Assembly (NCBI GenBank): GCA_031459715.1
Contig: JAVKIA010000007.1
Coordinates: forward strand, 1 to 64,000
Direction: 5' to 3'
Origin: Armatimonadota bacterium
GTDB lineage: Bacteria > Sysuimicrobiota > Sysuimicrobiia > Sysuimicrobiales > Humicultoraceae
DNA: 64,000 bases
Below are positions 52,025 through 55,033 of the stretch, piece by piece (position 1 is the first letter of the stretch; every line of letters starts with the position of its first letter). Both the position numbers and the translations under genes were made by a program. The notes under the pieces are model-generated. The model saw nothing but the letters and a program-made list of their open reading frames with translations. It was not told the origin of the DNA and searched no databases.

Positions 52025-52636
52025 ATGCGCAGTACTCGTCGCAAGGTAGCCCTGTGGGCGTTTCTGGTGACAGGCGCGCTGAGCCTGGCTTCGCCGGTGG
52101 CCTCCGGTGCACCAGCCAACCTCACCTGGAAGGGCGACCCGCAGGCGGTGGCCGAGGTGCAGGCTGCCTTCCAGAAGTTCGCCGCTGCCCGGACGTGGCG
52201 GGCGCGCATGACCTCCGGCGACAGCACCACCACTACGGCGTTCGTGGCCCCTGACCGTTTTCACATGACCATCGTCCAGGGCAAGGAGACCACGGAGATG
52301 TTCCTTGTCGGCCGGGAGGTGTGGATGAAGTCCGGTGGCACCTGCCAGAAACTGCCCGCGGCCCCTCCGGTGAAGACCCCCAAAGAGATGATCGAGCACG
52401 GCGGCGCAGCGACGACCATCACCGTGACCAGAGCCGGCCGGGAGGCCGTCGGGGGGACCCCCACGCAGACCTACCTGCTGACGGTAGAGAGCCGTGGCAC
52501 CACGGCGCGGCAAAAGCTCTATGTGGCCACGACCAGCGGGCTGCCCCGCCGCCTGGAGATCCAGGAGACACCGCCGGCGACCATCGACTACTTCGACTTC
52601 GGCGCGTCCATTACCATCAACAGCCCGCCCTGCTGA
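52025..52636 (+). CDS. Secreted protein, possibly LolA-like fold
   Basis: A 203-residue protein with a signal peptide (about 1-30; cleavage likely after ASGA). The mature part (AEVQAAFQKFAAARTWRAR, FVAPDRFHMTI, TEMFLVGREVWMKSGGTCQKL, YLLTVESRGTTARQKLYV) has the alternating strands seen in LolA/LppX-type lipid-binding proteins, but I cannot name a family. ATG 52025 follows GGGAGGGA at 8 nt. It is convergent with the HAD gene, only 11 bp between stops. Confidence 0.75.
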   Translation: MRSTRRKVALWAFLVTGALSLASPVASGAPANLTWKGDPQAVAEVQAAFQKFAAARTWRARMTSGDSTTTTAFVAPDRFHMTIVQGKETTEMFLVGREVWMKSGGTCQKLPAAPPVKTPKEMIEHGGAATTITVTRAGREAVGGTPTQTYLLTVESRGTTARQKLYVATTSGLPRRLEIQETPPATIDYFDFGASITINSPPC

Positions 52637-53331: not shown

Positions 53332-53456
53332 GACAGGACCTCTTGCGGGCATCTGCATGGAGCTTCTCCACTCCGCCTGCCAGCCCTTGCCACACCAAGA
53401 CTAGCTCCAGGCGGCCGTGGGCACACCAGAGATGGGATCGGGCGGGGAGGAGGGTT

Positions 53457-54572
53457 GTGGACGCCACGACCTCTGGAACGGAAGGCCGCGCGCTTGGGGC
53501 GCAGGCGCGCCCCGAGATCGCCTTCCTGCTGCTGGATGGCCTGCGCCGCACCCGACCCGGCGCCCCCACGGAGACGGTCCTCTGTGCCCTGGGCCTGTCG
53601 CCCGAAGGGACGCCCTACCCGCTAGCCCTGCGGGTGGCCCCCCGGGAGGACGAGCGGGCCTGGCGGGCGGTGCTGCGGGACCTGCGGGCCGATGGCATCG
53701 GGCCCGAGCTGCGGCTGATATGCTGCGACGGGCACCCGGCTCTGGTCAAGGCCATACACGCCTTCTACCCCGAGATCCCCCTGCAGATCAGCGTCGCCCA
53801 CAGGCTGCTGGCACTGAGCCGCAAGGTCGACCCGCGCTGGCGCGCCACCTGTCTGGCCGAGGCGCGGCGGATCTTTGCGGCGCCACACCGCTCCGCGGCA
53901 GTGGCTCTCTTTCGCGAGTGGCACGCCCGCTGGCTGCGCCAGGGCCAGTTCGCCGTGCGCAGCCTGGAGGCGGACCTGGCGTCGTGCCTGGCCTTCTACC
54001 GGTTTCCGTCCCACCTGTGGAGCCGGATCCGCACGGCCAACCTGGTGGAGCGGGTGTTTCGGGAAGCCCGGCGCCAGGCCCTCCCGGCGCTCCCGGCTGC
54101 GGACGAGGAGGAAGGCGCCGATGTCGCCGGACCCGTCGCGGGCGAGGGCCCTCCCCCAGGCGAGGGCTCGCCTCTCTGGAGCGACCGCCTGACCTCCGCC
54201 TCCGCCCACTGGGACGCCATGCCCGGGCCGGCCCCATCCGCCGCCCCTGCCGCCGGGATGGAGCTAGTCGCAGCGTTGCTTCCCGCGCCTCCTGCGGCCC
54301 CACCTCTGCGGGAAGCCCCTCCTGGCCCGCCCCTGGAAGCTTCCCTCCCTGCAGAGCCGCCAAAAGGGGAGGGGCAGGCGCATGCCTCGGAACGAGCCGA
54401 GGATTCGGCCACCGCGCCCGGCGAACCCGAGGCCTCCCACCTCTTCGCCGACGAGGGATTCGCGCAGTGGTTGCAGGCCGAGGAGAGACGGCGAATGCTA
54501 GTGAGGGTGGCTGCACTGGCAACCTCGGCCGCCGGCCTGATCAGCGGTCTCCTCTTATCCCTGGCCCGGTAG
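53457..54572 (+). CDS. Membrane-anchored IS256-type transposase-derived protein
   Basis: A 371-residue protein. Residues ~20-210 match the IS256/Mutator catalytic domain: D27 (AFLLLDGLRRTR), D91 (LICCDGHPALVKAI), H115 and E198 (IRTANLVERVFREARR), plus FYRFPSHLWSRIRT. The usual N-terminal ~150 residues (DNA-binding part) are absent, and the CxxH motif reads SVAH. A Pro/Ala/Glu-rich linker (~215-325) and a C-terminal TM helix (~347-369, VAALATSAAGLISGLLLSL) are additions. GTG 53457 has a strong GGGGAGGAGGG site. I see no inverted repeats. This suggests a domesticated gene with all three acidic residues kept. Confidence 0.72.
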   Translation: MDATTSGTEGRALGAQARPEIAFLLLDGLRRTRPGAPTETVLCALGLSPEGTPYPLALRVAPREDERAWRAVLRDLRADGIGPELRLICCDGHPALVKAIHAFYPEIPLQISVAHRLLALSRKVDPRWRATCLAEARRIFAAPHRSAAVALFREWHARWLRQGQFAVRSLEADLASCLAFYRFPSHLWSRIRTANLVERVFREARRQALPALPAADEEEGADVAGPVAGEGPPPGEGSPLWSDRLTSASAHWDAMPGPAPSAAPAAGMELVAALLPAPPAAPPLREAPPGPPLEASLPAEPPKGEGQAHASERAEDSATAPGEPEASHLFADEGFAQWLQAEERRRMLVRVAALATSAAGLISGLLLSLAR

Positions 54573-54661
54573 CATCTCTGCCCGGTATAAGGCCCGTATG
54601 CGGCGGATCGGGCAAAGCGTGAAGACAGAGGACTCGCCCGGATGTGACAGGCTGATCCGTC

Positions 54662-55033
54662 TCACCAGGCCTCTTCAGCGAAGGCATCCCGCAGCAGCGC
54701 CACGCGGACCCGTCCCGGGGCCACCGTCAGGCTGACCACGTCGAACCGACAGGCCCGCTCCGTCAGCCCATGCACGGCCAGGAAGTAGCGCGCCAGGCGG
54801 AGCAGGCGGCGGCGCTTGCCCGGCCCCACCGCCTCCGCCGCGCTCCCCGCTTTAGACCCCCGACGCGTCTTCACCTCCACGAAGACCACCACGTCACCCT
54901 CCTCGGCCACCAGGTCCAGCTCCCCCAGCGGGCAGCGGTAGTTGCGGGCGAGGATACGCCACCCACGGCGGCGCAGAACCTCCGCCGCCACCTCCTCTCC
55001 CCGCCGTCCCAGCGCCCGCCGCGCCCGGGTCAC
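54662..55033 (-). CDS. YraN/UPF0102 endonuclease-fold protein
   Basis: A 123-residue protein with the Holliday-junction-resolvase-like nuclease fold: LGRRGEEVAAEVLRRRGWRILARNYRCPLGELDLVAEEGDVVVFVEVKTRRG shows the E, D and ExK metal-site residues. The biological role is unsettled. It is the last gene of the ylxM-ffh-rplS-lepB-rnhB operon, its usual neighbourhood. Confidence 0.92.
   Translation of the reverse strand: MTRARRALGRRGEEVAAEVLRRRGWRILARNYRCPLGELDLVAEEGDVVVFVEVKTRRGSKAGSAAEAVGPGKRRRLLRLARYFLAVHGLTERACRFDVVSLTVAPGRVRVALLRDAFAEEAW

Follow-up and report, generated by a model that had tools for sequence, protein, structure and literature searches.

Within the window (64,000 nucleotides of contig JAVKIA010000007.1, from an Armatimonadota bacterium), one gene encodes a 371-residue protein in which the catalytic domain of an IS256-type transposase, stripped of its companion domains, is joined through a disordered linker to a C-terminal transmembrane (TM) helix. 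The gene is kept by purifying selection as a host gene, and its product is very probably a domesticated, tail-anchored host protein. Its ancestor was an IS256/Mutator-type transposase, domesticated apparently a single time within one family of the uncultured phylum Sysuimicrobiota (CSP1-3), for which chemoautotrophic enrichments have been reported (PMC11604079). As for what the protein does, the reading adopted here, as slightly more likely than not, is that of a tail-anchored, probably TM-dimerised protein that faces the cytosol and binds nucleic acid. Taken separately, the proposal that nucleic-acid binding at the membrane is its job stands at about even chances, and that catalysis forms part of this job is doubtful.

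Gene layout and the transposase-derived domain

The frame opens with a GTG codon at 53457, directly preceded by a ribosome-binding site, and ends exactly at 54572 on the plus strand (Table 1), in agreement with an earlier note on this DNA. That note had placed the start just before the first catalytic Asp, and the protein does begin some 22 residues ahead of the first beta strand; in two relatives (G001 and G006) a purine-rich site likewise accompanies a start codon that lies a short distance 5' of this strand.

Table 1. Features of the gene and its convergent neighbour (positions in the window)
Feature	Position	Strand	Basis
Complete gene for the 371-aa protein (RNase H domain of IS256 origin, linker, TM tail)	53457..54572	+	ORF, Pfam/NCBIfam, orthologue alignment
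Ribosome-binding site GGAGGAGGG, directly upstream of the GTG start	53446..53454	+	sequence
Catalytic domain (residues 22-207), RNase H-like, including a helical insertion	53520..54077	+	Pfam/NCBIfam, AF2, Foldseek
Catalytic-position Asp27 codon	53535..53537	+	invariant in 5 orthologues and 15/15 IS256-type proteins
Catalytic-position Asp91 codon	53727..53729	+	orthologue and IS256-type alignments
Ser112 codon, replacing the CxxH Cys; His115 kept	53790..53792	+	alignments; motif role PMC7780238
Catalytic-position Glu198 codon	54048..54050	+	orthologue and IS256-type alignments
Disordered Pro/Ala/Glu linker, residues 208-331	54078..54449	+	composition, charge, low pLDDT
C-terminal helix, residues 333-370, with TM segment ~351-369	54453..54566	+	AF2 helix, hydropathy
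GLxxG motif of the tail, here GLISG (G360-G364)	54534..54548	+	both Gly invariant in 5 orthologues
yraN (UPF0102), convergent neighbour marking the syntenic locus; outside the protein	54662..55033	-	gene-order comparison

Residues 38-207 match the Pfam family Transposase_mut (PF00872; E 1.5e-26), covering positions 180-348 of its 379-position profile. The NCBIfam IS256 model NF033543 takes in residues 23-207 (E 2e-34) at 119.1 bits, which is below the equivalog cut-off of that model (150 bits). The region is an RNase H-like DDE domain of the Transposase_mut type that carries D, D and E; the three residues named in the earlier note (D27, D91 and E198) fall on the triad that 15 IS256-type transposases share without exception. 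In the ISCth4 transposase, the DDE residues are D175, D241 and E348 (PMC7780238). The structure prediction proposed in the note returned an RNase H-like fold, with ISCth4 as the closest solved structure: a Foldseek search gave its chains, and nothing else in the PDB, at E values under 0.001 (6xg8, E 1.8e-10), and it was also the nearest entry in a sequence search of the PDB (E 6.5e-13). The AF2 model (mean pLDDT 61.5, with ten-residue blocks at 73-93 over residues 21-110 and at 57-82 over residues 111-210) places strands at 23-31, 39-47 and 53-61, followed by a helix, a strand, a helical insertion and the helix that bears the Glu (193-207), then a disordered stretch (209-331) and the C-terminal helix (333-370).

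What has been lost can be read against the same structure. In ISCth4, residues 1-165 form the N-terminal dimerisation, DNA-binding and HTH domains, while the catalytic domain comprises residues 165-261 and 325-407 (PMC7780238). The alignment with the window protein spans ISCth4 residues 194-362, and the protein has no equivalent of the residues that precede about 165 or follow about 362. Only the catalytic part of an IS256 transposase is therefore present, with the dimerisation, DNA-binding and HTH domains gone; the loss of the N-terminal DNA-binding part, as previously noted, is borne out by Pfam and NCBIfam coverage, by the ISCth4 alignment and by the AF2 model. Two further changes can be added to the earlier description: the end of the catalytic domain (the equivalent of ISCth4 363-407) is missing as well, and Ser112 stands where the CxxH motif has its Cys, with His115 retained. 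The corresponding ISCth4 residues, C262 and H265, have been described as important for catalysis (PMC7780238). The window protein accordingly lacks the C/DxxH motif of the insertion domain, and the Cys is likewise Ser in four of five orthologues (the window protein included). Positions conserved in 15/15 IS256-type proteins are changed at R79 and G95. The core carries a net charge of +5 to +12, close to the +13 to +16 of IS256 cores.

Beyond the core, composition, charge and hydropathy agree with the Pro/Ala/Glu linker that the note had described and with its TM helix at the C-terminus. The linker contains 30 Ala, 25 Pro and 14 Glu, carries a net charge of -15, and ranges from 120 to 189 residues in length among the orthologues. 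The best 19-residue hydropathy window scores 1.93, at residue 351, against values of at most 1.18 elsewhere in the protein, and the C-terminal helix is its only strongly hydrophobic segment. In all five orthologues hydropathy predicts a single C-terminal TM helix, with few residues beyond it and no other TM segment. The ‘GLxxG’ tail sits at the very C-terminus of each (segment hydropathy 1.9-3.1), with G360, L361 and G364 invariant and with positive charges on its N side. A promiscuous TM tail module was considered and rejected, the tail convincingly matching only its own orthologues in the genomes of the family.

Orthologues, locus and selection

A search of related genomes for the same N-truncated, TM-tailed layout, as the earlier note had suggested, recovered it intact in a congener (G001) and in three further genomes of the same family (G004, G006 and G007), at 44-58% identity to the window protein. 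Five species and four genera (three beyond the window's own) thus share the truncated domain, the linker and the tail, and the D27/D91/E198 triad is present in every one. Four of the five genes lie at the same place, tail-to-tail with yraN (in the genome of the window, G001, G006 and G004, representing three genera); in G007 the gene sits elsewhere, and yraN and yifB are found about 15 kb apart on another contig. Two minor features of the surrounding genes may be recorded. In G004, yifB is split into two overlapping frames (G004:C11:22383-23922; L098, L099), the result of a frameshift or an assembly error; and in the window a small gene for a probable exported protein, with a signal-peptide-like start, lies between yifB and a HAD-type hydrolase gene (52025-52636, plus strand).

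Five other genomes of the family (four of genus g2 and one, 78% complete, of genus g3) yielded no such gene, and in other families of the phylum the matches were only to ordinary IS256-type transposases, or there were none. Among 386 genomes, a five-sequence profile found no further protein matching through the tail. Over all the genomes searched (43 from the phylum, plus the 386 relatives), the one exception was a fusion protein in G005 (described below), picked up with a seven-sequence profile; a search of contigs returned the congener only. A phage origin and a link to a defence system were both rejected: no relative was seen among viral contigs with the patterns used, and no PADLOC model matched.

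The dN/dS estimates proposed in the note (Nei-Gojobori with Jukes-Cantor correction; rough values, since dS is high and the method simple) place the core well below 1, at 0.21-0.39 among the five orthologues, as expected under purifying selection. Against the congener the core gives 0.22 and the gene as a whole 0.38; the neighbouring trmD has 0.22, the ftsY-like gene 0.21 and yraN 0.31. In a phylogenetic tree, all of the domesticated proteins form one clade (ultrafast bootstrap 100), separated from IS256 by a branch of 0.85. Invariant columns make up 81 of the 190 in the core (43%), the triad included, 23 of the 34 columns that are strongly conserved in IS256 survive, and conservation of the triad is not enriched over the invariant background; its retention in five members is therefore not, by itself, statistically telling.

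Possible roles at the membrane

Under the preferred reading, that of a membrane-tethered nucleic-acid-binding protein, tail anchoring would leave the N-terminus in the cytosol and the C-terminus at the outer face. The GLxxG helix might pair two copies of the protein, replacing the dimerisation domain that was lost, and the linker could allow the two basic RNase H-like domains to reach nucleic acid beside the membrane. On the cytoplasmic side of the membrane, the protein would then bind DNA or an RNA/DNA structure, which it may nick or trim, and it would do so with no sequence-specific recognition of transposon ends. No neighbour is common to all members, and so gene order offers no genetic context for a role in DNA. 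A role in DNA uptake or processing, which the earlier note had guessed at from the nearby dprA and yifB, is unsupported, because the neighbours of the members differ: the G007 gene and all of the paralogues are located elsewhere, beside unrelated genes.

The note had spoken of a DDE ‘enzyme’ held at the membrane. The triad and the TM tail are present in five of five orthologues; certain catalytic activity is unsupported, given the loss of the CxxH Cys and of the domain end. A membrane-tethered and still active nuclease, in which D27, D91 and E198 nick or hydrolyse DNA or a branched intermediate, is rather unlikely. It would account for the retention of the full triad together with E64, W69 and H115 in all five members across four genera, and the model of the RNase H-like fold is a confident one near the first two Asp residues. 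However, the substitution of the Cys in four of the five, the absence of the ISCth4 363-407 equivalent, the changes at R79 and G95 and a triad whose conservation is not enriched over that of core columns in general all count against it. A fuller version, in which a self-pairing TM tail tethers an active IS256-derived nuclease to the inner membrane and the host uses this enzyme for processing or holding DNA, while inactive paralogues have taken on other roles (including a RodZ_C fusion), is improbable as a whole.

Three divergent paralogues that lack the full triad bear on a different possibility. In L002 (G000:C18:21866-22654, minus strand; from the genome of the window), the second D is Ser and the E is Arg, and there is no TM tail; its codon-position GC pattern is that of a real gene. 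In L025, from G004, the E is Ala; this gene is truncated by the end of a contig and lies beside dnaG. In L007 (G005:C1:1833378-1834727, minus strand) the first D is lost and the E is Arg, and beyond a TM helix the protein continues into RodZ_C (PF13464, E 5e-16). RodZ_C is the periplasmic part of RodZ. Its location beyond the TM helix of L007 would put the transposase-like domain of that protein in the cytosol, which fits the topology (N-terminus in, C-terminus out) proposed for the family; the charges beside the TM helices of other members also suggest a cytosolic transposase-like domain. Neither RodZ_C nor an HTH domain was matched in the window protein or in the four orthologues, RodZ_C being confined to L007. 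G005 also has a separate, ordinary RodZ, with which L007 shares RodZ_C and nothing else. A RodZ origin of the tail was rejected, the RodZ TM segments of these genomes being unlike the GLxxG tail.

On the strength of such proteins, the transposase fold might have no nucleic-acid role at all, and might instead serve as a protein-binding or scaffold module at the membrane, perhaps for the envelope or cell-shape machinery. L007 speaks for this idea, as it has neither the first D nor the E, is joined to RodZ_C by way of a TM helix and occurs in a genome with an ordinary RodZ as well; so do the two other paralogues that have lost catalytic residues and kept the sequence signature of the domain. Nevertheless, just one genome has the RodZ_C fusion, none of the five orthologues carries an extracytoplasmic domain, and the core has retained its basic charge; a scaffold is therefore considered unlikely for the window protein.

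Known systems and mobility

Domesticated transposases are known mostly from eukaryotes, with few documented in bacteria. The plant proteins FAR1/FHY3 and MUSTANG are domesticated MULE transposases, exapted from the same superfamily of origin; unlike the window protein, they are nuclear, with DNA-binding parts and no membrane anchor. Compared to the IS256/Mutator transposases themselves (PF00872; ISCth4 TnpA, PDB 6xg8, 6xgw and 6xgx), the window protein shares the RNase H-like fold, the helical insertion, the DDE triad and the His of CxxH, but it is without the dimerisation, N-terminal DNA-binding and HTH domains, is cut after the Glu helix, has Ser for Cys in CxxH and has gained a linker and TM tail, while its gene is single-copy, at a stable locus and free of terminal inverted repeats. 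RodZ offers a parallel in layout (a cytosolic N-terminal domain, a linker and a single TM helix, with RodZ_C itself shared by the G005 homologue), whereas the window protein has no HTH_25, the five orthologues have no RodZ_C, and ordinary RodZ is separate. The bacterial TnpA-REP/RAYT proteins, described as the first prokaryotic domesticated transposase, are likewise kept by their host as domesticated genes; in contrast, they are tyrosine (HUH-type) enzymes tied to REP sequences, of unrelated fold, and no TM tail is described for them (PMC8266576). A full-text phrase search, over an incomplete body of literature, returned no paper on a membrane-anchored transposase. Domesticated transposases as such are already known; the membrane-anchored variant, as judged from sequence, appears new as far as that literature reaches. 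The family illustrates how an IS256 catalytic domain, relieved of end recognition and supplied with a membrane tail, can be kept over long evolutionary time, and makes a compact case in which to study the reuse of a transposase fold at the membrane.

The earlier note, having seen no terminal repeats, held that presence only here, frame decay in relatives, or nearby full-length copies with inverted repeats would mark a dying insertion sequence. Instead, the gene is found in five species, and its relatives are intact. No terminal inverted repeats of the window ORF scored above shuffled flanks (a 17-nt, 82% pair at 53427-53443 and 54564-54580, which flanks the ORF, did no better than these), and no flanking repeat pair exceeded chance in the relatives. 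The comparison of copy number with true IS256 elements found no intact full-length IS256 in the same genome and no near-identical second copy; the other PF00872 matches there are a 42% identical, divergent paralogue and two remnants (G000:C3:82613-83359, with an internal TAG, and G000:C63:5408-5629).

These observations also bear on the two weakest alternatives. A self-limiting inhibitor of IS256 transposition, acting as a dominant-negative partner of the full-length transposase, would suit the shared family of origin, and a catalytic domain without end-binding domains could conceivably poison complexes; it is nonetheless highly improbable, as the protein has no dimerisation domain with which to join a transposase, no intact full-length IS256 was seen in the gene-bearing genomes (G008 has one, and lacks the gene), and membrane tethering would have no obvious purpose. 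The note's own alternative, degenerate IS256 debris in which a cut transposase reads by chance into GC-rich DNA encoding a hydrophobic stretch, is rejected as scarcely credible, for although such remnants exist in this genome and chance long ORFs are frequent at the GC content of the window, five intact copies share the same truncation, linker and GLxxG tail, the tail has a dN/dS of 0.18-0.38 among the three closest orthologues, the locus is stable and without above-chance terminal repeats, and the frame has been kept despite deep divergence.

A probable trace of the locus was also encountered in G005, where a small decayed stretch (G005:C1:530670-534155; L037, L026, L086, L100 and L104) contains pieces of yraN (74%), of this gene (70%) and of yifB (77-82%). 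These pieces are nearer to the genus of the window than are G005's own copies of yraN and yifB, and the stretch resembles a piece of this locus that was gained by horizontal transfer and has decayed.
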